DNA of 37,218 nucleotides from a virus. This document shows, piece by piece, positions 1 through 37,218 of the stretch (positions are counted from its first letter, which is position 1; the number at the start of each line of letters is the position of its first letter). The notes beneath the pieces are model-generated. The model was not told the DNA's origin and did not search any database. It worked only from the letters and a program-made list of their open reading frames with translations. A program made the translations under genes and the position numbers. The stretch is taken from positions 1-37,218 of IMG/VR virus record IMGVR_UViG_3300020183_000226. One strand, written 5' to 3'.

Positions 1-135
1 GGCTGTTGGAACGGCTGGATTCTTTGAGATACGAGCAACGCATCCACATGAACACCGTCACAATCAACTTGGTGAAATGCAAACGCCCAGCGTCGTTGCT
101 GTTGGATGACATGGATTATGAGATTGAACACGGAA
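1..135. repeat. Left copy of the 135-bp terminal direct repeat
   Basis: Bases 1-135 are repeated at 37084-37218 with one difference (A at 127, G at 37210). The repeat lies inside the helicase reading frame, and joining the two ends restores one uninterrupted frame. This is what an assembler leaves when it closes a circular or circularly permuted genome. A short physical terminal repeat is possible but less likely, because it would sit inside a gene. The mismatch changes a helicase codon from Glu (left) to Gly (right). Confidence 0.95.
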
Positions 136-239
136 CAGGCAGGCTGATTCCGCTCACGAACCACAACCTGCCGTCCTATGTACATAATCAACCCACCGCC
201 CCCGAACAGTTGGAGTTGGCTGTCATGGAGGACTGGTGA
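1..239 (+). CDS. DnaB-like helicase, C-terminal part (continues from 36255)
   Basis: This is the end of the helicase gene that begins at 36255. The frame enters at base 3 and stops with TGA at 237-239. It contains a basic KCKR segment that in DnaB-like proteins lies near the end of the RecA fold, and then an acidic tail. At residue 319 this copy reads Glu, where the copy at the right end reads Gly. Confidence 0.8.
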   Translation, partial: LLERLDSLRYEQRIHMNTVTINLVKCKRPASLLLDDMDYEIEHGTGRLIPLTNHNLPSYVHNQPTAPEQLELAVMEDW

Positions 240-1132
240 TACACCAACAAATCACTGGCATGTTCACCTCGCTGTTTCGTGGTCGTGGCGATGTGTACGG
301 GCACGAAGAGGGCAGATGCGTCAAGGAACCCTTGACGCATGAGGTGTTTCAACAACACTTGGACGGCGTTCGGGCTGTCGGCGTGTATCCGATGGTGCCC
401 ATAAACGACATTTATCATGTCGCATGGGGATGCTCCGACATTGACATAGACGATTTGGCTGGTGCACGAAAAATCCAGTCAGCCCTACGGGCAGTGGATG
501 TTGTTTCGTTCGTGGAGCGTTCACGCTCCAAGGGCTACCATGTTTGGGTGTTCGCCGAGAATGTCGTCCCAGCGTCCGACATGCGCAGGATGCTGTTGTG
601 CGCCCACCAAGTAGCCGAATATCCCGCACGGGAAGTGAACCCGAAACAAGAAACACTCGGCAGGGGGCAATACGGCAACTATGTGCGTTTGCCGTATTTC
701 AACGCCGAGGACATGTCCACGCCCCACAGGCGCATATTGGACGACGACAACAAACCGATGCACCTGAACGAGTTTGTCTCTTCTGCGCTGGTGTCACGCA
801 CACGACGGGAACTGATTGCCGACTTGGCGAAACTGTGGAAAGAACCCGTGACACCGCCCGCCGTCATTGACATGTCGCAAACCGTCGGCGTCAAAGAAGC
901 CCTGATGCAACTCAGCCCGCTGGGCAAGGTGATATGGCGTGACGGACCGTTGCCCACCAAAGACCGCTCCACGACCTTAGCGAGGCTGGGGCACGAGTGC
1001 GTCAGGTCGTGCATGTCGCCCAGCGAAACCAAAATTGTTTTGCTGGACGCCGACAGGCGTTGGGGCAAATATCATTTGCGCCCGAACGGCGAACTTGAAA
1101 TAGACAAACTGGTGGTCCGAGTTTTTTCGTGA
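236..1132 (+). CDS. Archaeo-eukaryotic-type primase (AEP/TOTE-like prim-pol)
   Basis: 298 residues starting at GTG, overlapping the helicase stop (GTGA). The metal-binding acidic motif SDIDIDD is at residues 67-73, the S-x-G-Y-H motif of AEP primases (RSKGYHVWVF) at 97-106, and the NPKQ...GQYGNYVRLPY signature, typical of the AEP branch seen in TOTE and phage prim-pol proteins, spans 135-154. These are the three conserved blocks of the AEP catalytic core. The residues after about 200 look like a helical accessory region with no motif I recognise. Expected role: making primers at the fork next to the coupled helicase. It may also have limited polymerase activity, as some family members do. No separate DNA polymerase was found in the genome. 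Confidence 0.85.
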   Translation: MIHQQITGMFTSLFRGRGDVYGHEEGRCVKEPLTHEVFQQHLDGVRAVGVYPMVPINDIYHVAWGCSDIDIDDLAGARKIQSALRAVDVVSFVERSRSKGYHVWVFAENVVPASDMRRMLLCAHQVAEYPAREVNPKQETLGRGQYGNYVRLPYFNAEDMSTPHRRILDDDNKPMHLNEFVSSALVSRTRRELIADLAKLWKEPVTPPAVIDMSQTVGVKEALMQLSPLGKVIWRDGPLPTKDRSTTLARLGHECVRSCMSPSETKIVLLDADRRWGKYHLRPNGELEIDKLVVRVFS

Positions 1133-1596
1133 AAAAACCGTTCGACCAATCCCTGTACGACGCCGACGACCCAGCGAAACAACTCGTATTGGACTGGTTG
1201 AAAAACTTGGGATTCGACGGGTACATAAACCCCGACGAATATGGCATAGACATAATCGGGACATTTGAAGGCGACAAAACCGTGTTTTTCGCCGCCGAGG
1301 TCGAGGTCAAACATAATTGGGTCGCCGAACAGTTCCCTTTTGACACGGTGCATTTTGCCGCCAGAAAACTCAAGTTTCTGGACCGCCACCCCAATGTGTG
1401 TTTCATGATGTTGAACCACCCAAGAACACGCATCCTAATAGTGGGGAAACAATATCTACAATCCGCTATAGTGATTTCCAAGGACACCATTTACACCACC
1501 GATGAACAATTTATTGAAGTACCTCTTGCCTGCTGTTCAATAGAAAATTTAGAAAGCAAGCAAGATGACAACGGAACGAAACGCAGAATCTTTTAG
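1129..1596 (+). CDS. Putative PD-(D/E)XK-fold nuclease
   Basis: 155 residues starting at GTG, overlapping the primase stop. The pattern GIDI (D41), then a beta strand ending EVEVK (E57/E59, K61), is the acidic...ExK arrangement of restriction-endonuclease-like folds. The N-terminal helix (AKQLVLDWLKNLGF) fits the helix that usually precedes the catalytic strands. The closest functional guess is a phage endonuclease acting on replication or recombination intermediates. The position between primase and RusA supports this. No family name can be given with confidence, and a non-catalytic relative is possible. Confidence 0.55.
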   Translation: MKKPFDQSLYDADDPAKQLVLDWLKNLGFDGYINPDEYGIDIIGTFEGDKTVFFAAEVEVKHNWVAEQFPFDTVHFAARKLKFLDRHPNVCFMMLNHPRTRILIVGKQYLQSAIVISKDTIYTTDEQFIEVPLACCSIENLESKQDDNGTKRRIF

Positions 1597-1936
1597 CAAC
1601 GAATCAATCTCGATTTTCGTCCCCGCAAAACCCGTCCCGAAGGGACGACCCCGCATGACCCGCCGTGGTCGTGTGTTCACACCGCAACGAACATTGGAAG
1701 CCGAGGCGCTCGTGCGTGCGGCGTGGGGCGACCGCCCCAAATTCGACGGTCCCGTGTCCCTCGTGTTGAACTTTGCGCCCGACGGCACATTGATTGTGGT
1801 GTGCCCGTATTATGGCAGCGAATCTCGGCTGCGGGGCGACATAGACAATTACATCAAGACCATAATGGACGGGCTGAACGGTGCGGCTTGGGGCGACGAC
1901 AGACAGGTGTTGCATGTGACGGCGGAAAAACAATGA
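1565..1936 (+). CDS. rusA: RusA-family Holliday junction resolvase
   Basis: 123 residues. The PKGRPR motif is at 25-30 and the acidic block at 92-112 reads GDIDNYIKTIMDGLN followed by DD (D92, D94, K98, D102, D111, D112), the RusA signature. The length matches the family (about 120). It cuts four-way DNA junctions and probably clears recombination or replication intermediates before packaging. It overlaps the upstream nuclease gene by 32 bases, an unusually long overlap, and the Shine-Dalgarno is weak. Confidence 0.93.
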   Translation: MTTERNAESFSNESISIFVPAKPVPKGRPRMTRRGRVFTPQRTLEAEALVRAAWGDRPKFDGPVSLVLNFAPDGTLIVVCPYYGSESRLRGDIDNYIKTIMDGLNGAAWGDDRQVLHVTAEKQ

Positions 1937-2094
1937 AAGTTAAATGTCTTAACTGTGATTATAGTTTTAGCGCCGACCCCCAAAAAACAGTCGGTTGCTT
2001 GTGCGACAGCGATGCTCCGACATGGTTGGGTTTGACACCAGATAACAAGTTGATGACCATGAGTTATGCCAAATATGAAATAGAAGAAAACTGA
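1933..2094 (+). CDS. Small putative zinc-binding protein (53 aa)
   Basis: ATG at 1933 overlaps the RusA stop (ATGA). The protein begins MKVKCLNCDY and later has GCLCDS, giving a CxxC plus CxC set suitable for one zinc ion. It carries no other recognisable domain. It belongs to the coupled replication cluster by its overlap. Function unknown. Confidence 0.7.
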   Translation: MKVKCLNCDYSFSADPQKTVGCLCDSDAPTWLGLTPDNKLMTMSYAKYEIEEN

Positions 2095-2095
2095 T

Positions 2096-2269
2096 ATGAA
2101 GCGTGTAATGGTTTGGATGTGGGAACACAGCGTTGAATCCATTGACCCGAAAACGGGCAAAAAAATCTATGTCACGATGCTCAGCGAAACGCCCGTCGAG
2201 GGCGGTAAACGCAGGCGTGTAGCCAATTATAGGGAAAAACAACACCGCCGTAAACCCGATGAAATATGA
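2096..2269 (+). CDS. Small basic protein (57 aa)
   Basis: ATG lies one base after the upstream stop (TGATATG). The protein starts MKRVMVWMWE and has a strongly basic C-terminal half (GGKRRRVANYREKQHRR). It overlaps the next gene by 11 bases. Probably nucleic-acid or acidic-protein binding; no family recognised. Confidence 0.65.
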   Translation: MKRVMVWMWEHSVESIDPKTGKKIYVTMLSETPVEGGKRRRVANYREKQHRRKPDEI

Positions 2270-2597
2270 ACCGACCGCACGACAGGGAGCCTCGCTGTAC
2301 GAAGTCCTCATGCAACCGTTTTTGTACGATGACCCGCACCCGCCGACGGACTGGAATTTGATTGACCTCGTACAGGAGGCGTTTGATACACTTGGGGATG
2401 CGGATAAACAAATTTTGAACGAAATTTTTTTTCAACAAAATACCTATGAAACGGCGAAAACCAACATAGGAATCAAGGCGAAATCCCATGCGTGGCGCAA
2501 GGCACGCAAGGCGTTGAACAATTTGAAATCTGTTTTATTGGAGAACGAAACATTCAGGAGCAAATATGCCAGCACCCTTACCGACCACATGGGATGA
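2259..2597 (+). CDS. Sigma-70 region-4-like DNA-binding protein
   Basis: 112 residues. From about residue 38 (LVQEAFDTLGDADKQILNEI) to 95 (RKARKALNNLKSVLL) the helix pattern follows sigma-70 region 4: a helix ending in D..IL, a short turn, a first helix (YETAKTNIGI) and a recognition helix (SHAWRKARKAL). There is no region 2, so it cannot be a complete sigma factor alone. It could be a phage transcription regulator that binds -35 elements or core polymerase. It ends overlapping the next gene by 32 bases. This is the only candidate transcription factor recognised for switching to the late genes. Confidence 0.55.
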   Translation: MKYEPTARQGASLYEVLMQPFLYDDPHPPTDWNLIDLVQEAFDTLGDADKQILNEIFFQQNTYETAKTNIGIKAKSHAWRKARKALNNLKSVLLENETFRSKYASTLTDHMG

Positions 2598-3117
2598 AGC
2601 CTCGTTGCAGGCGTTGGAATACATAATCAACATTGTTTCTACGGTCAAATACGAGGAACCCGCTTGGAAAAAATACAACGCCATATTGGACAGTCTTGCC
2701 AGTTTTGTTACTTGGCATGAAGCCGCCAGCGAATGGCAGGCGGTTTCCGTGATGGTTGATGCGGGGTGCATGGCTATGCACTCGTTGGTGCCCTTGACCT
2801 TGGGCGTGGACAAAACGGAGATGCACAAAATGTTGTGCCGCAAACAGCACGATTACGGGCATGGCAACATCAGCAAGTTCGGTTTGGTTGGGGTGGCTGT
2901 CCGCATGTGCGACAAAATTGCACGGGCGGAAAACATGTCCAGCAAAAACGGCGTGTCCGCCCAAATTACCGAACCCCTGAAGGACGCATACGAGGACATA
3001 ATCGGCTACGCCGTCATAGCCGTCATGCTGTACAGGGGGACATTCATGTTGTCGTTGGATTCGTCGGACTCAGCCAAACAAAAATACATGCCGTTAAAAT
3101 TGGATTTTGATGTATGA
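2566..3117 (+). CDS. DUF1599 / nucleotide-modification-associated domain 1 (Nmad1)-like protein
   Basis: 183 residues. The C-terminal half has the block KQHDYGHGNISKFG, then VGVAVRMCDKIARAEN, then EPLKDAYEDIIGYAVIAVML, which matches the DUF1599/Nmad1 pattern (KQ.DYG..N...FG..G...R..DK..R...; ED..GYA). This family is related to all-alpha nucleotide pyrophosphohydrolases and occurs in phages with nucleotide-pool or base-modification roles. The first 80 residues are specific to this protein. No base-modification enzyme was recognised nearby, so nucleotide-pool control is the simpler reading. Confidence 0.7.
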   Translation: MPAPLPTTWDEASLQALEYIINIVSTVKYEEPAWKKYNAILDSLASFVTWHEAASEWQAVSVMVDAGCMAMHSLVPLTLGVDKTEMHKMLCRKQHDYGHGNISKFGLVGVAVRMCDKIARAENMSSKNGVSAQITEPLKDAYEDIIGYAVIAVMLYRGTFMLSLDSSDSAKQKYMPLKLDFDV

Positions 3118-3323
3118 ACGAGGAACCAGTCAGCATGTACGGCATGAATCCGCTCGGCAAAAAAATAAACATCGGTGGAACAGAATTGCGCATAGATGAC
3201 GAGTTCGTGGCGGCGACGCTTCTTGCAATCGTCGCCGTATTGAACACGACAAACCAAGGGATAGACGAACAAATTTCTTTAGTGGGACAAAAAATTTATG
3301 ACGAAATCATTAAAACCAACTAA
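3114..3323 (+). CDS. Hypothetical protein (69 aa)
   Basis: ATG overlaps the stop of the DUF1599-like gene (ATGA). The protein has a beta-prone N-terminus (LGKKINIGGTELRIDDEF) followed by a hydrophobic helix (VAATLLAIVAVLN) too short and polar-flanked to call a membrane anchor. It overlaps the next gene by 26 bases. No family recognised. Confidence 0.6.
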   Translation: MNEEPVSMYGMNPLGKKINIGGTELRIDDEFVAATLLAIVAVLNTTNQGIDEQISLVGQKIYDEIIKTN

Positions 3324-3462
3324 CTTGGATTTGTTTGAACAAATGACGAAACATTTGATAGCCGAATCCCAAAAACTCGGGTTGCCGAACGCACGCATCC
3401 GTGACCTGCAAGAAATCAAGGTCGTAATCAGGGCGATACGCAAAGCAAGAGAAAAAACATAA
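3298..3462 (+). CDS. Hypothetical helical protein (54 aa)
   Basis: Starts with ATG at 3298 inside the upstream gene's end and stops with TAA at 3460-3462, where the next ATG begins (TAATG). It is predicted to be mostly helical, with a basic C-terminus (IRAIRKAREKT). Kept because both ends are coupled to neighbours and spacing is tight. Function unknown. Confidence 0.55.
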   Translation: MTKSLKPTNLDLFEQMTKHLIAESQKLGLPNARIRDLQEIKVVIRAIRKAREKT

Positions 3463-3710
3463 TGGACCCCAAAGAATTTGACCCAGACGACATGGAAGAA
3501 ATGTCCATCAAGTTTGCAAAAATCATGTCGGACAGCGACAAGGGGTACACGATGGAATTTTCCATCAGCCGACTTCAAGCGAAAGAACTGATGTCCATGT
3601 GGACGAAAGCGTGTTTGGGCGACGCTACATCAACGGCACAATGCTTGATTGAATACGGAAAAATAATGATGGAACTGGATTACGCCCTAACTTACGACGA
3701 GCGGGATTAG
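3462..3710 (+). CDS. Hypothetical acidic protein (82 aa); last gene of the rightward arm
   Basis: ATG overlaps the preceding stop by one base. Acidic, helical protein beginning MDPKEFDPDDMEEM, with no motif recognised. Its stop at 3708-3710 meets the leftward genes head-on, and the last four bases overlap the end of a small minus-strand gene. Confidence 0.6.
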   Translation: MDPKEFDPDDMEEMSIKFAKIMSDSDKGYTMEFSISRLQAKELMSMWTKACLGDATSTAQCLIEYGKIMMELDYALTYDERD

Positions 3711-3805
3711 TCCTCTTCGCTGTCGTCGGGTTTGTCCCCGCATGCGGGATGTTGCGGCAACGGCTTTTGCCGTTCCGTGCATGAACACAATTTTGCTTTG
3801 AACAT
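3707..3805 (-). CDS. Cysteine-containing mini-protein (32 aa), last of the leftward arm
   Basis: ATG at 3805-3803 overlaps the stop of the 2016-residue virion gene as TGATG, the same coupling used throughout this genome. The product begins MFKAKLCSCTERQKP, has a third Cys in HPACGD, and ends DDSEED. CxC plus C/H could bind a metal. There is no Shine-Dalgarno of its own, so expression would depend on re-initiation. Two hairpins lie inside it. It may instead be untranslated terminator sequence. Confidence 0.4.
   Translation of the reverse strand: MFKAKLCSCTERQKPLPQHPACGDKPDDSEED
3737..3774. terminator. Two hairpins at the convergent junction
   Basis: A perfect 12-base palindrome CCCGCATGCGGG (3737-3748) is followed by AACGGC-TTTT-GCCGTT (3759-3774). 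They sit exactly where the rightward and leftward operons collide, the place for a bidirectional terminator. Neither has a clear run of T on either strand, so if they terminate transcription the mechanism is not classical. Confidence 0.35.
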
Positions 3806-6800
3806 CAATTTTCTCTGGGAATAAGTTGTCGGTCAATCATCTCTTTGACGAAATCTCCTAAAGTGAACTGACGGTTAATAAACTCGCTGCGAACATCGCT
3901 GTCTTTAATGATTGTAATGGGGAAACCCAACTCGTTCAACCATGACTGACCCGTGCGGGTTTCGTAACTTTCCTTGCCACCCAAACGCCCGCCAGACAGT
4001 CGTTGCAATCTGGCAACCAACGGAATGGCGTTGCCCAACGCATATTGGGTAAAACCCGAAATGGTTTTATTGCCCTCTTTGTCGTAAATAGGTTTGAACC
4101 CTATTGCCTCCAAAGCGTTCACGACCGCCAACTCGGGACCACGGGCGGGCACACGCTCCTTGAACGGACCGACATCAATGCCTAATTGTCTGCCTTCCTT
4201 CAACTCGGCAGGCAATTTTATGAACGGATAAGTCTGACCAAGCAATCTATACGGGTCAAGGATGTTCCTTAAACCTTCGGTCAATCTTTGTTGGGGCATG
4301 TCAGCCCTGATGGTGTAGTAGCCTTTGCCCAAAAACGGAATATCGCCCTGACCGATGCCCAGCGGTTCGTAACCAATTTGCCATTCGGGGATAATTTGGT
4401 CGTCGTCAATAGGCAAGGCTTGTTGCACCTTTTCGTAAATGTTGTATGCGTTCGGACGCATAAACTGGTTTGTTATCTGATTCGGGATGTTTCGTGTCGC
4501 CCAAATCCAAAACGGCACAAATTGCAACGCAGTCTCATCCAATTTGGACAGGTCGGTGTAATCAAAATGGTAACGAGTTACCCGTGCAACTGCGTCATCA
4601 TAGGTGCCACCTTTCAATATGGTGTCCAAAGCCATCGGGAATCGCACCGCCGCTTCGACACGGGTGTTTGCACGACGGACACCCCTAGTGTATGAGTTTG
4701 TTGAAAAACCTTGTTTGCGAATAAACTCGGCTGCGTTCTCGGCAACGGGTTGCATCCGTGTGCCGAAACTAGAAGAATCCAACCCAGTTTTGTTCAATAT
4801 GTTGATTACACGCTCACCGAGCGTGCCAGCCAAAACGGGTTCACGCAAATCCGTAAACGACCCCTGCAAACCCGTCGCAATCGCCGCCTTGAGCGCCTCG
4901 TCGTATTGTTCCCGCAACACGGGGTCCACGATGCCCAATTCATCCAACCATTTCGCTGGACCATATTTGTTCAATGCGTTCATGGCACGAACACCGTTTA
5001 CGGCGGTTGTGCCATCCACGCCACCAACAAAATTCATAAACATGGACGAATACGAGTTGCGAACAACAAAACCAACGCTCGTCACCGCATAGGTTTTGAA
5101 CAAGTCTCTGCTCGCCGACAAAAATCGTGTAAGAATACTGGCGTTTGCTTTGCTAAGCATTTTTTGCAAATTGGGTTTCCATGTGGACAGCAACTGTTCT
5201 GGCGCCTGAACACCCAAAGCCATAATCGCCTCCCAGCCCTCCAAGGTGCGTGCTTCAATCGGTGCCATAATCGCACCAAATCTGCCGCTGCGTGCGATAT
5301 CCAAAAGTTCCTTGCTGGCGACAACCGCATCCTCCGCTTGCGCCAAACCAATTTCGCCGACATGTAACAACTGTGTTACACGCTCATACGCCGCTTTAAC
5401 GGTTTGGTCTTTAATGTATTTGGTTGATTCCACGCTGCGTTGCACGCTGCGCACCCACTCACGGGCAGCGACGCCCGCCTCGCCTCGTGCTGGCATGTCC
5501 AACATCGCTTGCCCCGTGGCGGCGAGTTCGTTGCGCAAAGCGTTGCCCGTGCCGTTACTCCACTGTTTTAATGTTTTGCCCTGTTCAAACAAAACCTGCA
5601 AACGGTCTTGATATTTTAGTAGTTGTCTTTCTGCCCCTACGATTGTTTGCGCTTTTGTACCAGAAGTTCCCATACCTGTTCCGAGAACGCCCTGATTTCC
5701 TGTGGGGACATTTCCGCCAACGGTTTGGGGGGTTGTACCAGTTCCACGAACTCCTGTTGTTTTTTCTCTACCACCAGTTCCTCCTGTCGGTATTTCTTGT
5801 TTATTTTTAACATCCCAAATAGCCTGCTGGTTTCTTTCACGACCAGCCCTGATTGCTTCGTCTTGTTTCAGTATATTATCAACAACATCCAAAACAACTT
5901 CATCATTTTTTTTGTCATGCCAAATACCAAGATAATTTTTGCCACCCAACTGTTCTTTTTTGCTGTTGAAATATGATTCCAATATGTTTACACCAGTTGA
6001 TTTTTCAAAGAAATCTGATGCGGGGACAATGCTGCTAAATTCTTTTCGTGCAACCATAAACCCAGCCGTAGGTTCCTTGCCCGTCAGCATGCGCACGGAC
6101 AAACCTTCGTTTGCGGCGACCTTTTCTATAATGGATTCCAATTCTCTCCGTTTTGGAACTGGAATTGTTGGCGCTGGCAACCGCACCCCAGAAACAGCCT
6201 GAGCAATAGAGCGCTCCAAGTTTGCCCGCAGTTTTGCTTCTTGTTTGGTCGCCGCCTCCAACGCCTTGGTGATGCCAGCACGGTCCAACACGACCTTTTG
6301 CCCGCCGATTGTGACTGTTTGTTTTCTGCCCTCGATTTCCGTCACCCTTGTCCTTGCCGAGGCAACCAGTTGTCGTCGCCCTGTTTTTTGTGCCGTCAAA
6401 AACCCCTGCTGGGCGGTCAGTTCGTTGATGCGTGCGTTGATGGCGCTGCGGGCTACATCAACCTCTTGGCGTGCGCCAGCAGCCGCAGCCAAACGACCCG
6501 CAGCCGCCTCGGATGCGGTCGTATAATCGGAACGCAATATGGAACCCAACACGGGGTTGTCGGCACCCTGAACAGGTGCCGTAGGCGCATTGGACGGCGT
6601 AACCATATAGTTCTGCGGTTTGACAATGACAATTGCGGTTTCTTCAGCCGTGTCGTCAAACAGTGTTGCGGGCAGCAACAACCCATCCATTTTTCTTTCT
6701 AGGTCGGCAGCCAAAGCCACATCGCCCAAAGCAGAATCTATAATCATTCTGCCAGTTTGTTCGGCGGCGGGGTCGCCCGACATGTGCGCAATGCCAACCA

Positions 6801-29267: not shown

Positions 29268-29302
29268 GTTTGGCGATTTGCTAAACTTAATTGAATACGG
29301 TG

Positions 29303-29343: not shown

Positions 29344-29352
29344 GCCGAGATT

Positions 29353-29370
29353 ATGAACTGGGAGGTTCAT
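29353..29370 (+). promoter_or_regulatory. SD-hairpin 3
   Basis: Third exact copy of ATGAAC-TGGGAG-GTTCAT, 2 bases before the ATG at 29373. The surrounding sequence differs from copies 1 and 2, so the conservation is confined to the hairpin. Confidence 0.8.
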
Positions 29371-29372
29371 TA

Positions 29373-30629
29373 ATGAGTGCAGTACCATCCAAGCCCGTTG
29401 TTAGTTACAACGGGGCAATCCGTACCGTCAATTTTGCTGACGGTACGGTGAAGAATCTTAGTGATTGCACTAAGAACGAGTTGATTGCAACCGCCAAGCA
29501 TCTCAACATCAAGTTTGTGGGTCGTCCGCCGTTGCACTTTTCGCCCTTGGCGATTGAGTCGGCGATTGCGTACCGTCAGTCGGTGATTCGCTATAGCAAG
29601 CCGTCGCCGTCGTTGCCGTCGGTGCCACCAGTGCCACCAGTGATTCCGCAACCTGTGGTTGCTGGTTCGTTGGATTCGGCTGTTCAACTTGTGGTGCATA
29701 ATGCGGTGCAAGTTGCGCTTGACCAGTTCAAGGCTGGCGTGGACGAGACACAAGTTGGGCAACTTGTCGCCGATGCGGTGAAACCACTGTTCAGTGGGTT
29801 CAAGCATGAAGTGTCCAAGCAGATTGATTCGTTGCGTCCTCAGGTCACGAACATCACGGTCGCCAACCGTCCTACGGTTCAAATCAAGGGTGTTTTGCAT
29901 AATCGGTTCACCGACATTCTTCACACTGTCGGTGCTGGTGTTCATGCGTACCTCGTCGGTTCGGCTGGCACTGGTAAATCTACGATTGGCAAGCAGGTTG
30001 CCGATTCGTTGGGTGTGCCGTTTGCTAGCAAGTCGGTTTCGGGTCAGACGCCTGAATCTGCGCTGGTTGGGTACATGGCTGGTGGTGGCAACTATGTTGG
30101 CACCGAGTTTCGCCGTATCTTTGAGCATGGCGGTGTGTTCCTGTTGGACGAGGTGGACAACGGCAACCCCAATGTGCTCAATGTGCTAAACAGCGCCTTG
30201 GCGAATGATGCTATGGCGTTTGCGGACGGCATGGTTTCACGCCACCCGAATTTCGTGGCGATTGCTACAGCGAATACCTACGGTAACGGTGCCACCGCCG
30301 AGTATGTTGGTCGTAACCCGATTGATAAGGCGTTCCTCAATCGTTTTGCAACGATTGACATTGACATTGACGAGAGGGTTGAGGATGCGATGCTCAACTC
30401 TGTTGGGTTGCCAGTTGATGTTGCCCAGTCGTGGATTTCGGCGATTCGCAGGGCACGAGCCAATGTGTTCAGTGCAGGGTTGCGAGTGTTGGTTACGCCT
30501 CGTAACACGCTGAACGGTGCCAAGCAGATTGGCGCTGGGATGACCCCCGCCAAGGCGTTTGCGACACAGATTACCGCTGGTCTCAAGCCTGAGCAGTTGG
30601 ACAAGGTGATGGCTGGTGTCACCCTGTAG
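29373..30629 (+). CDS. MoxR-type AAA+ ATPase
   Basis: 418 residues. A unique N-terminal part (1-160) with a Pro-rich stretch at 77-94 precedes the AAA+ core: Walker A GSAGTGKS at 196-203, Walker B FLLDEV at 256-261, sensor 1 around N301 (IATANT), arginine finger R324 (FLNRF) and sensor 2 near R377 (VTPRN). The GGVFLLDEVDNGNP and ATANTYGNG sequences fit the MoxR/CbbQ branch. Such ATPases work with von Willebrand A proteins to remodel or insert cofactors into targets, and the next gene has that partner's look. The hairpin 30616-30637 spans its stop codon. Confidence 0.85.
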   Translation: MSAVPSKPVVSYNGAIRTVNFADGTVKNLSDCTKNELIATAKHLNIKFVGRPPLHFSPLAIESAIAYRQSVIRYSKPSPSLPSVPPVPPVIPQPVVAGSLDSAVQLVVHNAVQVALDQFKAGVDETQVGQLVADAVKPLFSGFKHEVSKQIDSLRPQVTNITVANRPTVQIKGVLHNRFTDILHTVGAGVHAYLVGSAGTGKSTIGKQVADSLGVPFASKSVSGQTPESALVGYMAGGGNYVGTEFRRIFEHGGVFLLDEVDNGNPNVLNVLNSALANDAMAFADGMVSRHPNFVAIATANTYGNGATAEYVGRNPIDKAFLNRFATIDIDIDERVEDAMLNSVGLPVDVAQSWISAIRRARANVFSAGLRVLVTPRNTLNGAKQIGAGMTPAKAFATQITAGLKPEQLDKVMAGVTL

Positions 30630-30637
30630 GGTGGCAC
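30616..30637 (+). other. Hairpin across the MoxR-like stop codon
   Basis: GTGTCACCC (30616-30624), loop TGTA, GGGTGGCAC (30629-30637): nine pairs with one G-T wobble. The TAG stop lies in loop and first stem base. No T-run follows, so it is more likely an mRNA boundary or stability element than a classical terminator. Confidence 0.5.
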
Positions 30638-30655
30638 TGGCTGTCGTTGAATGTT

Positions 30656-30679
30656 GTTTCTACGAAACTGGGAGGTTTC
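30656..30679 (+). promoter_or_regulatory. SD-hairpin 4 with a competing upstream arm
   Basis: GAAAC (30664-30668), loop TGGGAG, GTTTC (30675-30679) forms the same structure as copies 1-3 with two compensated pair changes (G-C to A-T; T-A to G-C). A further GTTTC at 30656-30660 can pair with the same GAAAC through a TAC loop, so the left arm has two alternative partners, one leaving the Shine-Dalgarno unpaired. The ATG is at 30683. Confidence 0.7.
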
Positions 30680-30682
30680 ATT

Positions 30683-31501
30683 ATGGGTACATTAACTACC
30701 GTTAATGGTAAGTCCAATGTTGTGTTGGACAAGTTTGAGTCGTTCGGTGAGATGTTGGCTTACGCCAATGCGAACACTCGCAAGGAGCAGTCGGACAAGG
30801 GTGAGCAGTCGTTTTGTGAGACTGCGAACTATGCGGAGGCTCACAGGTTGGCTACCGAGGGTTGGCATGCGGTTCGTCCCGAGGTTGAGCGCATCATGTC
30901 GCAACTGTCGGAGCAGATTGACAGCCGTTTGGATGTGGTGTCGGAGTTGGAGTATGCGGTTTCGGGTGGTGCCGTTGATGTGGGTCGTTGGCTCACTGGT
31001 GAGCCTGAATGTATGTTCAACTTCGTCCCGATGCCGAACGAGCGCATGGGTCGAGTCGTCAAGATTTTCATTGATTATGGCGCCTCGGCGATGTTCAGTG
31101 CCGAGTTCATCCGTCAGCGTGGCATTGTGTTGTGCGCTTTGGTGGACACTTTGCAGAAGATGCGTGTCGCTTGTGAGGTGTGGGGTGAGACTGCGGTTAC
31201 CTTCGGTAATCAGATTCACACCACGGTTGTCAAGTTGCATGATGCTACGACTCAAATGGACATTGACGAATTGATGTTCGCTTTGGCGAACCCGTCCATG
31301 TTGCGTCGCATCACATTTTCGGTTCGTGAGTTGGCTGGGTGTGGCAACAAGCATGCATATGGTCGCACGATTGAGACCGAGTATGCGGTGGATTATGGTG
31401 CGGACATTCGGATTGAGCGACTCAAGGAGAAGTACAGCACGATGATGCAGAATCCCGTGGAGTGGGTTGTGTCCACAATCAAGGGGATGGAGTTGGTGTA
31501 A
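30683..31501 (+). CDS. von Willebrand A-like partner of the MoxR-type ATPase
   Basis: 272 residues. ATG at 30683 is set by the SD-hairpin; an earlier in-frame ATG at 30647 lies upstream of it. A strand VVKIFI leads to D131-Y-G133-A-S135, then a long helix and RGIVLCALVDTLQKMRVACE, the beta1-alpha1-beta2 order of a vWA domain. The metal-site motif DxSxS is changed to DxGxS. Position directly after the MoxR gene is typical of MoxR-vWA pairs. It resembles phage proteins filed, I believe, under DUF7192 (unverified). The N-terminal 90 residues are helical. Confidence 0.55.
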   Translation: MGTLTTVNGKSNVVLDKFESFGEMLAYANANTRKEQSDKGEQSFCETANYAEAHRLATEGWHAVRPEVERIMSQLSEQIDSRLDVVSELEYAVSGGAVDVGRWLTGEPECMFNFVPMPNERMGRVVKIFIDYGASAMFSAEFIRQRGIVLCALVDTLQKMRVACEVWGETAVTFGNQIHTTVVKLHDATTQMDIDELMFALANPSMLRRITFSVRELAGCGNKHAYGRTIETEYAVDYGADIRIERLKEKYSTMMQNPVEWVVSTIKGMELV

Positions 31502-31534
31502 TTGGTTCGGCTCGTTGCGCCGATAATGCAACGG

Positions 31535-31568
31535 ATGGTGGGCGGGCTATGCACTCCCCGCCCACCAT
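31535..31568 (+). other. 12-bp perfect intergenic hairpin
   Basis: ATGGTGGGCGGG (31535-31546) pairs fully with CCCGCCCACCAT (31557-31568) around a 10-nt loop. It is one of the strongest stems in the window and lies between the vWA-like gene and the next start. No T-run follows, so it could be a 3'-end stabiliser, a processing site or a weak terminator. Confidence 0.6.
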
Positions 31569-31591
31569 GCACTGGAAAAAATTGACCCGAG

Positions 31592-31605
31592 AATCAAGGA
31601 GGTTC
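31592..31605 (+). promoter_or_regulatory. Degenerate SD-hairpin 5
   Basis: AATC-AAGGAG-GTTC just before the ATG at 31609. The right arm GGAGGTTCATTATG matches the family, while the left arm pairs only with one bulged T. It may be a decayed or weaker family member. Confidence 0.4.
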
Positions 31606-31608
31606 ATT

Positions 31609-31821
31609 ATGGGTTACGAAGTAATAATCAAATGGTTACCCGAGGACATACAGGGGCACCAGCCCGACTGGCACGAGTCCAAATGCGAGTTCGTGTTGGA
31701 CGAAGTTTCGCAAGAACTGATAGAGCGTGTCGTTGAGTTCGGTAACGAAGTTCTGGAAGAACTGTTGTCCGAGTGGATTGACGAGAGTGAAGAGCACTAT
31801 TGTGAAGAAGAGGAGGTGTGA
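31609..31821 (+). CDS. Small acidic protein (70 aa)
   Basis: ATG at 31609, directly after AAGGAGG. Begins MGYEVIIKWLPEDIQGHQPD and ends in a strongly acidic tail (WIDESEEHYCEEEEV). A small acidic phage protein of this type may act as a DNA mimic or host-protein inhibitor, which is speculative. Coupled by TGATG to the next gene. Confidence 0.6.
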   Translation: MGYEVIIKWLPEDIQGHQPDWHESKCEFVLDEVSQELIERVVEFGNEVLEELLSEWIDESEEHYCEEEEV

Positions 31822-31967
31822 TGACGATTTGGCAGATGTTTTTCGGGTTGTGGATGTTCATGCTCGTGATGGTGCTTGTGCTGGCGTACATGCTTACGCA
31901 TGAGTCAGGTTCACAGCGCCACAAGCATGGTCGTGACTATCCGTATGACCAAGATTTGGATTGGTGA
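31821..31967 (+). CDS. Small single-span membrane protein (48 aa)
   Basis: ATG overlaps the previous stop (TGATG). One hydrophobic segment covers about residues 4-25 (WQMFFGLWMFMLVMVLVLAY), followed by a charged tail (SQRHKHGRDYPYDQDLDW). Early expression of a small membrane protein suggests a role in host takeover or superinfection exclusion; unproven. Confidence 0.6.
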   Translation: MTIWQMFFGLWMFMLVMVLVLAYMLTHESGSQRHKHGRDYPYDQDLDW

Positions 31968-31998
31968 TTGACAGGCGCCGACTAGAATCGGCTATAGT
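31968..31998 (+). promoter_or_regulatory. Putative early promoter P2
   Basis: TTGACA (31968-31973), 19-base spacer, TATAGT (31993-31998), directly after the stop of the membrane protein gene. It shares the 19-base spacing and a similar GGTGA lead-in with the promoter at 28239. It would start a leader of about 90 bases containing three hairpins before the ATG at 32093. Confidence 0.55.
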
Positions 31999-32019
31999 TA
32001 TGGCTATGGTCAAATGATT

Positions 32020-32058
32020 TGCCACCTGACGGTGGCATCGGTGTGGACGATTTGTCCA
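32020..32058 (+). other. Tandem leader hairpins before the DUF3846-like gene
   Basis: TGCCACC-TGAC-GGTGGCA (32020-32037) and, 6 bases later, TGGAC-GATTT-GTCCA (32044-32058), followed by an SD-hairpin. The arrangement mirrors 29303-29370 although the sequences are unrelated. Confidence 0.6.
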
Positions 32059-32073
32059 TGCTAATTAGCAATA

Positions 32074-32092
32074 TGCAACTTAGGAGGTTGTA
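32074..32092 (+). promoter_or_regulatory. SD-hairpin 6
   Basis: TGCAAC-TTAGGAG-GTTGTA with six pairs including one G-T wobble. The AAC/GTT core next to the loop is kept, while the outer pairs differ from copies 1-4 by paired substitutions. AGGAGG straddles loop and stem, and the ATG at 32093 follows immediately. Confidence 0.65.
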
Positions 32093-32710
32093 ATGTTAGG
32101 CATAAAAATGGGTGCTGTTCTCAGCACCAATGTGAGTACACCGCCCGAGGCGTGTGTCATCGGCGATATCGCCGATATTCAGGAAAAAATTGGCGGTTGT
32201 TTCGACTGCGTGACCATCACCTGCAGGGGTGACAATGGCGCCAGTTTTCAACTGGTGGGCTATGTTCACGACGAGGGACGGATTCTCAATCCGCCGTTGC
32301 CGTTGAACCTGATGGCGTCGTCCATATTCAACCGAGAATTGCACGGTGACTGCGTGATTCTTAGCGGGACGAATCCTGACAACCACGACGACGACGGCGA
32401 CAGTTACGATTTGCCGTCCGTGTTCTACCAATATTTGGTAGAAGATTTTTTCCCGTCAATTCGTAAGGCGATTGTGTTCACACAAGTGTCTGCGACTGCC
32501 GTGAAGTTGGCGAAAGAGTTGGGCGAAATTTCGTCCGACGATTATGATTATGTGGTGGAAACCGTATCCGAGTTGAATCAAACCAATTTCGGTAAAGATG
32601 TGGGCAATTTGCCCGACCGTTTTCAACGCATCCTCGCCAAGAGCGTGGGGTTCGCCATGGTGTGCATGACCGAAATGGTTTTCGGTTCGCAAGATACAGA
32701 GGAGGAATGA
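32093..32710 (+). CDS. DUF3846-like protein (205 aa)
   Basis: The first 110 residues follow the DUF3846 pattern: VIGDIADIQEKIGGCFDCVT, then GYVHDEGRILNPPLPLN, then GDCVILSG. The remainder is helical and acidic, with no recognised domain. DUF3846 proteins occur widely in phages and plasmids with unknown function. Its stop overlaps the next ATG. Confidence 0.65.
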   Translation: MLGIKMGAVLSTNVSTPPEACVIGDIADIQEKIGGCFDCVTITCRGDNGASFQLVGYVHDEGRILNPPLPLNLMASSIFNRELHGDCVILSGTNPDNHDDDGDSYDLPSVFYQYLVEDFFPSIRKAIVFTQVSATAVKLAKELGEISSDDYDYVVETVSELNQTNFGKDVGNLPDRFQRILAKSVGFAMVCMTEMVFGSQDTEEE

Positions 32711-32988
32711 TGTCCGAATCCGATTTGATTTCGGATTTTGACGGTTGCGACGCACCTGTGGCACCAACGGCACCCAAGGTGCCTGTGGTGCCTATGGTGA
32801 CGGTTGTTCGCAAGCCCAAGATTGTGAAGCGTGTGGGGCGTAAACCGTCCCTCATGCCCGCTGGCACTTACAGGTGCCCGAAGTGCAGTAATGAAATCAT
32901 TGTGTTTATTCGCATGTCGGCTTTGCCGTTGTGCATAAATCATTCGGCGTCCAGTGGGGGTGCCGTACAAATGGAGGAGGTTAAGTGA
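32710..32988 (+). CDS. Proline-rich zinc-finger protein (92 aa)
   Basis: ATG at 32710 overlaps the previous stop (TGATG) and sits behind GGAGG; ATG at 32707 is an alternative. Ala/Pro/Val repeat (VAPTAPKVPVVPMV) followed by a basic segment and a zinc finger: CPKC, then C..H (LPLCINH). Looks like a small DNA- or RNA-binding protein. Confidence 0.6.
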   Translation: MSESDLISDFDGCDAPVAPTAPKVPVVPMVTVVRKPKIVKRVGRKPSLMPAGTYRCPKCSNEIIVFIRMSALPLCINHSASSGGAVQMEEVK

Positions 32989-33161
32989 TGAGGAAACATA
33001 ATTGGAATCCCGAAACTTTGCGTGTTGGGTTCAACGCCATGTTGCAATATGCGGAACGGCAGGAAGTTGAGCACGAGCACGACACCGTTTTGGGTTCGTA
33101 CTGGTCGGGCATCAAGGATGCTTTGCTGGTTGCAGTCACAATATTGGAGGAGGAGAAATGA
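32988..33161 (+). CDS. Hypothetical protein (57 aa)
   Basis: ATG overlaps the stop of the zinc-finger gene (TGATG) behind GGAGG. Helical (NPETLRVGFNAMLQYAERQE; GIKDALLVAVTILEEEK). No family recognised. Part of a run of six small coupled genes (32710-33725). Confidence 0.6.
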   Translation: MRKHNWNPETLRVGFNAMLQYAERQEVEHEHDTVLGSYWSGIKDALLVAVTILEEEK

Positions 33162-33334
33162 ATCAGAAGTATCAACTTGTGCAACTCGCACGGTTAAGCC
33201 GTGTCGTGTATGGCGACAACGCCGTGGAATTTTTAATTGGTGCGTTGTCGTCGGTGACAAGCGAATCTCAAATAAATGTGTTGATTGACAAATTGAACGA
33301 CGATGTGCGAGAATTGGTGCGAGGAGGAAAATGA
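33158..33334 (+). CDS. Hypothetical protein (58 aa)
   Basis: ATGA overlap with the preceding stop; strong GGAGGAGG Shine-Dalgarno. Helical protein MNQKYQLVQLARLSRVVYG, then FLIGALSSVTSESQINVLID. The product is probably soluble and small; unknown function. Confidence 0.6.
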   Translation: MNQKYQLVQLARLSRVVYGDNAVEFLIGALSSVTSESQINVLIDKLNDDVRELVRGGK

Positions 33335-33534
33335 AAACATATTTCTTGACCGCCACCCGTCGGTTTCGTAGCGAAACGGTGAAGTTGTACGCCACGGACG
33401 ACAACGATGCGATTGTGTCGGGCGCCCTGAAGGTCATGTCGCTTGCGTACCCGAATGTTGATTTGTGGGGCAACGGCGAGATTGTTCTTGAAGATGACCA
33501 CGGAACCGTGATTCAACGAATGGAGGAAAAATGA
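33331..33534 (+). CDS. Hypothetical alpha/beta protein (67 aa)
   Basis: ATGA overlap and GAGGAGG Shine-Dalgarno. Begins MKTYFLTATRRFRSETVKLY, then TDDNDAIVSGALKVM: strand-strand-helix pattern. No family recognised. Confidence 0.6.
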   Translation: MKTYFLTATRRFRSETVKLYATDDNDAIVSGALKVMSLAYPNVDLWGNGEIVLEDDHGTVIQRMEEK

Positions 33535-33725
33535 GAAAAAAATTGGTTGAGGTACCGTTCCCCGAATGTCCTCGTTGCGGGGGGTTTATCCCGAACGACA
33601 AGCATGCGGGCGAATACATGGGCGCCCTGTCTAGGTTGGACAACGAAACCGAGATTTGTTCTAAATGCGGTGAGATTGAGGCGTTGGAAAACATGGTGTA
33701 CGGCAAGATTTATGATTGGAGGTGA
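33531..33725 (+). CDS. Actinophage-type zinc-ribbon protein (64 aa)
   Basis: Two CxxC pairs, C13/C16 (ECPRCGGFIPND) and C42/C45 (ICSKCGEIEALE), separated by the segment GALSRLDNETE. This pattern closely follows a small protein common in mycobacteriophages and other actinophages, from memory. It supports an actinobacterial host. Probably a transcription or translation accessory; function unproven. Confidence 0.7.
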   Translation: MRKKLVEVPFPECPRCGGFIPNDKHAGEYMGALSRLDNETEICSKCGEIEALENMVYGKIYDWR

Positions 33726-33733
33726 CATCTATA

Positions 33734-34522
33734 ATGGAACAACCTGAGATGAGCCTTGATGATTTGTCCGATGTGAAGCCGTTGGGTGTGCGCATACAGG
33801 TTTCCGACGGCGTGCACGGCATGTGGATGGGGCGCCAGTTGTGCGAGGTGCGTGGATATTGTGCGCCTTGGACGGACGAAAAAATTTTGGACTATTTCCA
33901 AGATTTGTGCAAATTTTATGACGCTTGGTCGGAGTCTGCCTCCAATGCGGTTTTGCCCAACGCCGTGTCAGACCTACAGGCATTGGAACTTGAGGGCGAC
34001 ACATTCAACAGGTGGAAACTGATTCGTTCGTATGTGGATGGCGCCTACAACAAATATTTCGACGAGTCGTTGATTTCCATAATGAAAATGTTGGGCGTCA
34101 GCCCAACATCGTGGCTACAGGCGTGCACGACGGGCGGTTTCCCGAAATGCTTTGAGGTGTCCGACGATTTCATCGCCGAGTTGGAAAACTATTACATGTC
34201 CCACGAAAAAATCGTGTGGAAACACATGGGTGAACATTTCGGTTTGCACCCGAAAATGATGAAAAATTTGTGCCGTGTTTTCGAGAAACGGCACATGGTC
34301 AAGTACGGCTACAAGGCGCTTGACCGCAGGGTGGCTAAGAAGATTTTGAACGAACTGTCATTGACCACATCCATGACCCCGACCGCAATCTGCGACGAGG
34401 TGTTCAAGCGCACCGAGGTGCGGTTCCACCTCAGCGCCGTCACCAAGATTCGTAAACGAAAGCGGGCTACGGATGTGCTAGAATCGGGGACAACGAACAG
34501 CGAGGACGAACATGAAAATTGA
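33734..34522 (+). CDS. Putative DNA-binding protein with C-terminal HTH-like helices (262 aa)
   Basis: ATG at 33734, 9 bases after GGAGGTG. The N-terminal half is unrecognised (VRIQVSDGVHGMWMGRQLCE). Two helix-turn-helix-like segments follow, WKHMGEHFGLHPKMMKNLCR at about residues 164-183 and the CDEVFKRTEVRFHLSAVTKI segment near 225. The end is charged. Overlaps the nuclease gene by 11 bases. May regulate early transcription or take part in replication. Confidence 0.5.
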   Translation: MEQPEMSLDDLSDVKPLGVRIQVSDGVHGMWMGRQLCEVRGYCAPWTDEKILDYFQDLCKFYDAWSESASNAVLPNAVSDLQALELEGDTFNRWKLIRSYVDGAYNKYFDESLISIMKMLGVSPTSWLQACTTGGFPKCFEVSDDFIAELENYYMSHEKIVWKHMGEHFGLHPKMMKNLCRVFEKRHMVKYGYKALDRRVAKKILNELSLTTSMTPTAICDEVFKRTEVRFHLSAVTKIRKRKRATDVLESGTTNSEDEHEN

Positions 34523-35354
34523 TGCGATAAACAAGCGAATATATGTGCGCCAATCTTGGTTGAACGATGTGTTGAATTGCCCCGAACGGGCACGGCTTGC
34601 GCTCAACAATCCGCACATGCGCATGCCTTCGGACGCCACGATTATCGGCACCGCTTTGCATCATGCGATTGAAACCTTTATTGTCACCGCCGACGAGGTG
34701 GGCATGGTCGGTTCGGAGGTTGAAGAAATGGTCAGATGCGGGACAGCCGAATATCAGCGTTTGGCGTCTGAACCTCACCGCAAAACTGGGATTGATGAAA
34801 CCAAAATTTTGTCGTACATTGATGCGATGTGTGTTGCGTGGTACACGACAATCATGCCGTATGTGGAGTTGGGTGGCAAAACCGAGCATCGTTTTGTGTT
34901 GCCTATCGGCGTCAATGTGGGCGGTTTTGATGTTTTCATTGAGGGCACAATGGATTATATTTCTCCGTCTGGTGTCATCTGGGATTGGAAAACGGCTGGT
35001 CGCTCGTATTCGGGCGCCGAGAAACAGAAGAACGCCGTGCAGGCGTCCATGTATGCGATGGCGGCGAACATAATGAATTTGGTTCCCGACCCGAATGACA
35101 TTGAGTTCAAATATGGTGTAATGATTCGGCAAGAAGCCCCGAAAGCGCAGGTGGTTGCGTTGCACCGCAATCAGGAGCATGTCCAGTGGATACGCAACCA
35201 AATTATTTCCGCCTGCCGTATGGGTGTCTCGTTGGGCACCGATACGGGCTGGTTGTTGAACGACCAAGGCAATTTGTGTTCGCCCAAATGGTGTGATTTT
35301 TGGTCTATGTGCAAGGGCGCAACCGTGTCCGAGCAGTCGTTGTTGTTGAGATAA
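34512..35354 (+). CDS. Cas4/RecB-like PD-(D/E)XK nuclease with predicted Fe-S cluster
   Basis: 280 residues. GTALHHAIE at 46-54 supplies the GxxxH...E motif, D148 in EGTMDYI and D158-x-K160 in IWDWKT form the catalytic core, and QASMY (177-181) is the QxxxY motif. C23 together with C256, C261 and C267 matches the four-cysteine Fe-S arrangement of Cas4 and AddB-like nucleases. Expected 5'-3' exonuclease activity for recombination or host-DNA degradation. There is no Cas1/Cas2 or CRISPR array, so this is a phage recombination nuclease rather than an adaptation module. Confidence 0.85.
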   Translation: MKIDAINKRIYVRQSWLNDVLNCPERARLALNNPHMRMPSDATIIGTALHHAIETFIVTADEVGMVGSEVEEMVRCGTAEYQRLASEPHRKTGIDETKILSYIDAMCVAWYTTIMPYVELGGKTEHRFVLPIGVNVGGFDVFIEGTMDYISPSGVIWDWKTAGRSYSGAEKQKNAVQASMYAMAANIMNLVPDPNDIEFKYGVMIRQEAPKAQVVALHRNQEHVQWIRNQIISACRMGVSLGTDTGWLLNDQGNLCSPKWCDFWSMCKGATVSEQSLLLR

Positions 35355-35686
35355 TGGCGGGAACGGGCATGCGTGAACCGATTGAACTGACCGTCGCCAC
35401 CGCAGTGGCGTCGGGTCAGCCGTTGTCGTTGCCGATTGTGGAGGTGCAGTGGATTGACGCCGTTGGTTCGGGCGACCGCTGGGACACCCCCGAAAATGTT
35501 GATTCGATGTCGCCGTCGAAAAGTTTTGCGGTCGGATATTTGTGGCACGAATCCCGAACACATGTAACATTGATTATGTTGGTGAACGATGTCGGTACCG
35601 TGGGTCATTCGTTGGTTATACCGAAAGGCATGGTTGTCGGTGTGCGCACGCTGGTTCGTGCTGACACGGGCGCACTGGATGCGTGA
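35354..35686 (+). CDS. Hypothetical beta-rich protein (110 aa)
   Basis: ATG overlaps the nuclease stop (TAATG). Beta-rich: VEVQWIDAVGSGDRW, SFAVGYLWHESRTHVTLIML, HSLVIPKGMVVGV. It is probably a small globular protein. No family recognised. Confidence 0.6.
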   Translation: MAGTGMREPIELTVATAVASGQPLSLPIVEVQWIDAVGSGDRWDTPENVDSMSPSKSFAVGYLWHESRTHVTLIMLVNDVGTVGHSLVIPKGMVVGVRTLVRADTGALDA

Positions 35687-35790
35687 TATGATGGACGATG
35701 TAAAGGCTGACAGGGTGCCACATGGCAAGTGTGACAACCTCCCCTCTGTCAGCCGATTTGTAAGTAATACAAACAAGACAGGAGAAAAAA
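35687..35790 (+). promoter_or_regulatory. Leader with strong hairpin and possible promoter
   Basis: A TATGAT -10-like hexamer (35687-35692) follows CTGACA (35661-35666) at 20-base spacing. GGCTGACAG (35705-35713) then pairs perfectly with CTGTCAGCC (35746-35754), enclosing a smaller TGCC-ACAT-GGCA stem (35716-35727). A GGAG Shine-Dalgarno near 35780 precedes the ATG at 35791. This is the only sizeable non-coding gap before the helicase-primase block, so it could start and control a second early transcript. Confidence 0.5.
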
Positions 35791-36255
35791 ATGAATACCA
35801 TAAGTAAGGACCAATCCATAATCACGCAGGTTGCGGCGAAAATCGCCGCCGACTTGACGCCACTGACGGACGATGTGAACATGAACATCTCCAACTGGCT
35901 CATAGCGTTTGACGCAACATCGGATGCGTTGCTGGAAAAACACGGCATGACCGCCTTGGACGACCAACAGATAACCGAGGTTGTGCAACAGGTGTTCCCC
36001 AATTCGGTGGCGGTGACACAATCATCGGCGCCACAATGGGCTGTCGAACAGGCGCAGTTGCCGAAATTTCAGGTTCGCATCAAAGGTCGCCAGCACGGCG
36101 ACATTCCAGCATGGTTGCATGCGGAGTGCGCAAAGAAAGGCGTGACCGAGGTGTGGGACAACCGTGACGGTTTGTCCATCAACCCGAAGCGCCCTTGGTT
36201 CAAATCAACAACATCCAACGATGCGTTTTGGGCGCCAAAAACATCTAGGTCATAA
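35791..36255 (+). CDS. Replication-linked protein of unknown function (154 aa)
   Basis: Starts after a GGAG Shine-Dalgarno; its stop overlaps the helicase ATG (TAATG). The helical N-terminal part (IITQVAAKIAADLTPLTDDV) precedes a conserved-looking C-terminal domain: QVRIKGRQHGDIPAWLHAEC, then KKGVTEVWDNRDGL, then NPKRPWFKS. This C-terminal pattern appears next to replication genes in other phages, from memory. It may be a DNA-binding or helicase-loading protein; not established. Confidence 0.55.
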   Translation: MNTISKDQSIITQVAAKIAADLTPLTDDVNMNISNWLIAFDATSDALLEKHGMTALDDQQITEVVQQVFPNSVAVTQSSAPQWAVEQAQLPKFQVRIKGRQHGDIPAWLHAECAKKGVTEVWDNRDGLSINPKRPWFKSTTSNDAFWAPKTSRS

Positions 36256-37218
36256 TGCAAGACCCCGATTTCAAGGGGCGATGGTCAGCGCTAGGGCGGG
36301 GAGAACAACTCCCCGCCTTTGACGCATCAAAACAACCCGCACATTTTTTCAAACCGTTTGCGCTGGCGGCTGACGAATATGTGCACTGGGCGCAAAACCC
36401 CGACGAACGCATCTACTTGGGGTTCGCCGACATAGACGAACAGATGCGGGGCATCGCCCCGTCCGAAATGTGTCTGATAAACGGGTACAGCCACAGCGGT
36501 AAAACTTTGTTTTTGTTGCAAATTTTGTTGGCGAACAAAACAAAACCCGTAATCTATTTCTGCCCCGACGAACCCCGCACGCTGACGCTGATTAAGTTGG
36601 CGTGCCTGACCCACGGCATAGACGCCAACCTGTTGGAACAGGAAATCAGCCGAGGCGTCCCCGAAGCCATTGAACTGCTCCGCAAAACCTCAACCGAAGA
36701 GTTCCCGAACCTAGCGGTCTTTGACCAAATGCTGTCTTTGGCGGACATGGAGCGGGCTTTGGGCGAGGTGCGTGACGCTTGGGGTCAGCCCGCCTTAATC
36801 GTTTTTGACTATTTGGAACTGCTGGTGGGCGGTGGCGAAGATGTCCCATCCAAAGCCAACACGCTCAAGGCTTTCGGCAAACGCCATAATGTGCCGCTGC
36901 TCGTGCTGCATCAATCCTCTAGGTCCGCAGGCGCCGACGGTCGCAAAATGACCATCTCCTCGGGCGCCTACGGCGGTGAACAACAATCGGCGCATGTAAT
37001 CGGCGTCCGCCGAAAACGGTTCGAGATAGAGGCGCAAATCCGTGAGATAGAGGACAAACTGGACAAATCCAACTCAACCGAACGGCTGTTGGAACGGCTG
37101 GATTCTTTGAGATACGAGCAACGCATCCACATGAACACCGTCACAATCAACTTGGTGAAATGCAAACGCCCAGCGTCGTTGCTGTTGGATGACATGGATT
37201 ATGAGATTGGACACGGAA
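36255..37218 (+). CDS. DnaB-like replicative helicase / RecA-fold ATPase (5' part; continues at 1-239)
   Basis: Joined across the circle this encodes 355 residues. A P-loop GYSHSGKT lies at residues 77-84, a Walker B strand ending in D at about 180-185 (LIVFDY), and an HQ sensor-like motif at 219-220 (LLVLHQ). The order matches the RecA-fold C-terminal domain of DnaB/gp4-type helicases. The protein lacks a full DnaB N-terminal domain, so it could also be a shorter RepA/RadA-like ATPase. The ATG overlaps the previous stop as TAATG. The primase follows with a GTGA overlap, so helicase and primase are made as a coupled pair. Expected role: unwinding the fork and recruiting the primase. Confidence 0.8.
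   Translation, partial: MQDPDFKGRWSALGRGEQLPAFDASKQPAHFFKPFALAADEYVHWAQNPDERIYLGFADIDEQMRGIAPSEMCLINGYSHSGKTLFLLQILLANKTKPVIYFCPDEPRTLTLIKLACLTHGIDANLLEQEISRGVPEAIELLRKTSTEEFPNLAVFDQMLSLADMERALGEVRDAWGQPALIVFDYLELLVGGGEDVPSKANTLKAFGKRHNVPLLVLHQSSRSAGADGRKMTISSGAYGGEQQSAHVIGVRRKRFEIEAQIREIEDKLDKSNSTERLLERLDSLRYEQRIHMNTVTINLVKCKRPASLLLDDMDYEIGHG
37084..37218. repeat. Right copy of the 135-bp terminal direct repeat
   Basis: Matches 1-135 at 134 of 135 positions. It gives a unique genome length of 37,083 bp, a multiple of three, so the helicase frame continues across the join. Confidence 0.95.

Follow-up and report, generated by a model that had tools for sequence, protein, structure and literature searches.

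Missing words and gene content of the genome

Here we analyse the loss of restriction sites from the phage genome of IMG/VR virus record IMGVR_UViG_3300020183_000226 (positions 1-37,218); the window is this whole stretch of DNA, 37,218 bases long. A sequence-only reading had reported the apparent absence of GATC, GGCC, CCGG, AGCT and CGCG from the window, and a direct tetramer count bears this out: all five words occur zero times in 37,218 bp, as does ACGT, which had been flagged after a less careful scan, and the minimum count among the remaining 250 tetramers is 29. First-order Markov expectations are 105 for GATC, 165 for GGCC, 168 for CCGG, 67 for AGCT, 218 for CGCG and 176 for ACGT. Our main null was a synonymous-codon shuffle (200 shuffles), which leaves each protein and the codon usage of each called gene unchanged and predicts 84, 135, 121, 99, 149 and 130 copies, respectively. 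Testing the palindromic tetramers against both nulls, as that reading had proposed, thus sets zeros against 84-149 shuffle-expected sites, with z = -12 to -16 and no shuffled count below 66.

Two longer words had been overlooked. GTYRAC, the HincII site, is found 0 times with 42.5 expected by codon shuffle, and CCWGG twice with 38 expected. The remaining CCWGG sites are:

24744..24748, CCWGG site, one of only two left
25590..25594, CCWGG site, the second of only two left

With avoidance defined as a site count below 10% of expectation at an adequate expected count, the avoided words of the genome are the six tetramers, GTYRAC and CCWGG. In total, the genome has lost all copies of at least seven Type II words and nearly all copies of an eighth.

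The claim that palindromes are not avoided in general holds for CATG (151 observed, 135 expected by shuffle), GCGC (147, 167), TGCA (146, 154) and CTAG (44, 43.5), and AATT (192, 209) and ATAT (133, 130) are similarly near expectation; GTAC (70 vs 100) and TCGA (41 vs 139) are partly depleted, as are TATA (48 vs 81) and TTAA (52 vs 107). Six-base palindromes show a general mild depletion. This depletion, together with that of TTAA and TCGA, speaks for a compositional, codon or mutational bias that removes words without any selection for restriction escape; the shuffles, which preserve codon use, argue against such a bias as the source of the zeros, as does the comparison of close relatives below.

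A terminal direct repeat of 135 bases supports the 37,083-bp circle proposed by the sequence-only reading. The repeat and the genes are:

1..135, + strand, left copy of the terminal direct repeat, 135 bases
236..1132, + strand, archaeo-eukaryotic type primase (AEP-TOTE; Pfam PF22548, E=4e-21)
1129..1596, + strand, open reading frame (ORF) of 155 amino acids, PD-(D/E)XK-like pattern judged by eye
1565..1936, + strand, RusA Holliday junction resolvase (PF05866, E=2e-15)
3805..9858, - strand, 2017-amino-acid protein, probably virion-internal
11989..13626, - strand, virion structural protein (phrog_3287, E=1e-16)
16704..17645, - strand, major capsid protein (phrog_9953, E=1.5e-74)
18525..20258, - strand, portal protein, basis of the family tree (phrog_156)
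20684..22279, - strand, terminase large subunit (phrog_2)
22279..22707, - strand, lysozyme-like (SLT_3) protein, slightly under the Pfam cut-off
22720..23262, - strand, VanY-type endolysin, 52% identical to the endolysin of DSL-LC01, a predicted actinophage
26440..27111, - strand, terminase small subunit (phrog_2538)
29373..30629, + strand, CobS-like AAA ATPase (phrog_249, E=4e-54)
30647..31501, + strand, DUF7192 protein adjoining the CobS-like gene (PF23822, E=1e-37)
34512..35354, + strand, PD-(D/E)XK (Cas4/RecB-like) exonuclease (PF12705, E=9e-11), in the whole family and in MW202803, the nearest named relative
37084..37218, + strand, right copy of the terminal direct repeat, with one mismatch near the repeat end

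The pair formed by the CobS-like AAA ATPase and the DUF7192 protein (29373-31501) is kept in much of the phage family.

Purging across the phage family

Relatives were gathered by terminase and portal, and purges were counted on contigs of 8 kb or longer. Each of the 66 related contigs is purged of one to eight tetramers (median six). AGCT is purged in 66 contigs, CCGG in 54, GATC in 48, GGCC in 44, and ACGT and TCGA in 37 each; rarer purges are those of CGCG (34 of 65) and, among the 66 contigs, TTAA (10), CATG (5) and AATT (2), and ATAT, TATA, CTAG, GTAC, GCGC and TGCA are never purged. Apart from AGCT, each of the purged tetramers is lost from some lineages and close to its normal level in others. 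Mapped on the portal tree, individual words switch state separately, for most of them two to eight times (TCGA and GRCGYC 8 each, CCGG and CGCG 6 each, GGCC 5, GATC, AATT and CCWGG 4 each, and ACGT 3). Restriction-site purging is a trait of the whole podovirus-like family.

Among the relatives of DSL-LC01, a metagenome-assembled phage that carries WhiB genes, 52 of 68 contigs taken as a control have no purged tetramer and the maximum is two, and 19 of 21 distant or MW202803-like control contigs are without a purge. In ten same-metagenome comparisons the contigs of other phages hold the words at normal level. This contrast excludes a library or assembly artefact and, given that the purge sets also follow phage phylogeny over many metagenomes, we regard the loss of site-bearing reads in assembly, in library preparation or by contamination as a negligible explanation, in favour of which nothing was found. 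DSL-LC01 itself (L143, first 50 kb) shows ATAT at 0/59 and TTAA at 0/77; we know of no restriction enzyme for ATAT.

How sites are lost can be followed substitution by substitution in the related phages L109 and L111, which are 8.8% diverged and contain 0 and 26 copies of CATG, respectively. All 19 aligned CATG sites are changed between L111 and L109 (5.9 expected), 18 of them by one substitution, while the rate of change at six control palindromes is neutral. Of the CATG-removing substitutions, 13/20 are synonymous and third codon positions predominate. Similar comparisons for ACGT (48/48 sites changed) and TCGA (36/36) agree with this result. That CATG alone was removed between these lineages as other palindromes drifted neutrally, and that the exact zeros in close relatives differ from word to word, speaks against compositional, codon or mutational bias, which in combination with the shuffles we consider almost certainly not to be the cause.

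The loss of sites extends to the proteome. The dipeptide Trp-Pro is missing from 11/11 proteomes of GGCC-purged genomes (6-10 expected in each), in which Pro-Trp is found 4-12 times per proteome, and occurs 2-7 times in relatives that are not purged of GGCC. Because Trp-Pro can be encoded only as TGGCCN, which contains GGCC, its loss necessarily follows from the GGCC purge. Purging thus constrains proteins as well as DNA.

TCGA is the word for which a purge may have been relaxed. In the genome, the remaining sites are:

1142..37024, 41 TCGA sites spread over this interval

None of the 41 sites lies in a six-base palindrome or forms RTCGAY (approximately 13 expected from the flanks), as if longer TCGA-containing sites were still selected against in the genome. 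The nearest clade, G001-G003, the terminase and portal of which are 85-91% identical to those of the genome, is purged of TCGA (none). In the genome and in its closest kin, L001 and L002, the word is partly present, which coincides with a shift in G+C content of about five to six points (50.5% in the genome vs 44-46% in G001-G003). A possible move to hosts without a TCGA-cutting enzyme would explain both the G+C difference and the partial presence of TCGA.

Recognition sites, phage enzymes and hosts

With few exceptions, the longer words purged in the family are known recognition sequences of Type II enzymes, degenerate and interrupted ones included. Of the near-palindromic hexamers, in which one symmetric pair is off, 27/2,249 tested are purged, compared with 4/16,500 other hexamers. 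Purged near-palindromic hexamers are GTCAAC, CCACGG, GACGCC, CTCAAG, GAGCAC, GAGCCC, CGACCG, GGCACC, GGGCAC, CACGAG, CTGAAG, CTCCAG, GAATGC and TTCAAA, and GAAGAC, found in three genomes, is among the other purged hexamers. Except for TTCAAA (TTYRAA), we take these words to be members of the HincII, BtgI, BsaHI, SmlI, HgiAI, BanII, BsiEI, BanI, BaeGI, BssSI, AcuI, BpmI, BsmI and BbsI sites; nearly all the near-palindromic ones are off-palindrome members of degenerate Type II sites, e.g. GTYRAC, GRCGYC, CCRYGG, GGYRCC and GRGCYC. The purged pentamers are CCWGG, CGWCG (the Hpy99I site), GGWCC, GCWGC and GCSGC; the exceptions, CCAGA and CTCGA, are each confined to one genome. Purged interrupted palindromes include GAAN4TTC, GATN4ATC and GACN3GTC; for a single interrupted case no more than 10-13 copies are expected, and weight is therefore put on recurrence across genomes. 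Two side observations concern less familiar words: TTYRAA is purged in G027 and G034 (L161-L162, L165-L166; TTCAAA 0/20 and 1/18), and in G036 (L167-L168) the asymmetric five-base CCAGA/TCTGG is purged (1/44), possibly reflecting a non-palindromic system.

The absence of a phage methyltransferase claimed by the sequence-only reading was confirmed, with no C5 or N4/N6 enzyme (PF00145, PF01555) in 50 related records and no D12 or Dam enzyme (PF02086, PF05869) in 22 records. Similarly, tyrosine and serine integrase families were found in none of 22 records, which fits a lytic, non-temperate phage.

Alternatively, the phages could themselves encode sequence-specific endonucleases for destroying the DNA of hosts or competitors, their own genomes being without sites for self-protection. 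The candidate is ORF 1129-1596, which has a PD-(D/E)XK-like pattern and is shared only by the genome and the three full-length relatives closest to it, each of them purged of GTYRAC. However, G027 is purged of GTYRAC without a homologue of this ORF, which is hence not required for the purge. The ORF has no sequence relative in the PDB, and its structure model, with a predicted local distance difference test (pLDDT) score of 36, is uninformative and was not used. In G003 the homologue (G003:C1:6233-6694) has an internal TGA stop and is a decaying or misassembled gene. More generally, for eight words (CCGG, ACGT, CGCG, TCGA, TTAA, CCWGG, GRCGYC and GGWCC) no ORF cluster both occurs in every purged genome and is lacking from every unpurged one, and the ORFs associated with purging of AGCT, GATC and GGCC are small, structural or antisense. 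The gene-content association yielded no phage nuclease gene that tracks a purged word; it indicates that, for most words, differences in purging between lineages do not follow the genes that the phages carry, and for most words a phage-encoded nuclease was rejected on this basis. We therefore consider this alternative very improbable.

As for the hosts, a terminase alignment search of 84,980 species genomes for a host or prophage returned one distant Ktedonobacteria metagenome-assembled genome only, which was rejected as host given its identity of only 35%. WhiB, which is regarded as an actinophage marker (PMC10202952), passes the cut-off in a single family record, G043 (E=1e-19), and is absent from the genome; the 220 phage matches of the G043 gene are all actinophages, except for two whose names give no host genus. 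With the similarity of the VanY endolysin to that of DSL-LC01 also considered, it is reasonably likely that the hosts are Actinobacteria, and these would probably be aquatic.

Combining these data, we suggest that the family very probably consists of lytic podovirus-like phages that evade many host Type II restriction enzymes by means of genomes without sites. In this model, (i) in a lineage living on hosts with a given enzyme, site-bearing genomes would be cut on entry, (ii) single-base, mostly synonymous substitutions that remove sites would be fixed until zero sites remain, and (iii) since hosts differ, each phage lineage would end with its own set of purged words. The sequence-only reading had likewise suggested selection by several restriction systems of the host, the phage having no recognisable methyltransferase; the phage side of that proposal stands, in that the words match Type II sites, vary between lineages and are accompanied by no methyltransferase, and we infer host restriction cutting as the selective force.

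Several points weigh against this model: we know of no enzyme for TTYRAA or CCCAGA, the host search tied no genome to the phage, and a single host would have to carry exceptionally many Type II systems. Moreover, actinobacterial drafts from Lake Biwa (acI, CL500-29) showed neither methylated motifs nor genes for methyltransferases (PMC6329791). The number of systems that one host would need makes pressure from many host strains likelier. Given that the Lake Biwa drafts are partial and that 5-methylcytosine is poorly detected, which tempers the absence of methylation, and that lake populations are variable in their restriction genes (PMC9426551), it is plausible that the phages are selected by host strains whose population changes.

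The lack of detected methylation and methyltransferases in abundant lake Actinobacteria in the one study (PMC6329791) could also indicate that cutting is done by host restriction-like nucleases that lack a partner methyltransferase, or by a different sequence-specific defence such as DISARM. The purged words show the spectrum of ordinary Type II systems, though, and a host without methylation would also have to purge its own genome, and we hold this possibility to be improbable, favoring evasion of Type II enzymes.

If so, site elimination reaches far, with many enzymes defeated by sequence alone and Trp-Pro gone from the proteome. As close relatives have different word sets, these sets form a barcode matchable to restriction genes of uncultured bacteria and could help to predict hosts that lack CRISPR spacers, e.g. 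acI Actinobacteria (PMC10202952). More tentatively, the purge set of each genome might be a near-complete record of the Type II repertoire met by its lineage, undescribed specificities such as TTYRAA (two genomes) included, in hosts thought to be restriction-poor, and gains and losses of words might mark host switches.

Comparison with known systems

Complete or nearly complete site elimination has been described for about one-tenth of virus genomes, chiefly in lytic phages and for orthodox Type II sites (PMC6286503), and eliminated sites make up 3.9% of virus-site pairs in that survey of prokaryotic viruses (Rusinov et al. 2018, PMC6286503). The genome resembles these cases in its strong, word-specific loss of Type II sites from a lytic double-stranded DNA phage without methyltransferase; it differs in that seven words are missing altogether and an eighth is almost gone, and in that the sets vary combinatorially within the family. 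In Staphylococcus phage K (first 40 kb) only GATC (0) and GGCC (0) are affected, and in phage T7 only one word, GATC (6 of 149 expected). Phage 1961P of Helicobacter pylori, a species with many restriction-modification systems, is purged of only two tetramers (ACGT 0/57, GTAC 0/39) and encodes an integrase. MW202803 (Podoviridae sp. ct52p938, Manatee Spring), with a portal 44% and a terminase 49% identical, purges only CCGG (0/215) and TTAA (2/59), and its AGCT, GATC, GGCC and CCWGG counts are near or above expectation, unlike those of the genome. Our literature searches for a virus family with complete multi-word purging turned up only general avoidance studies. Thus, site avoidance is already known, but many complete purges in lineage-specific combinations appear to be new and extreme.

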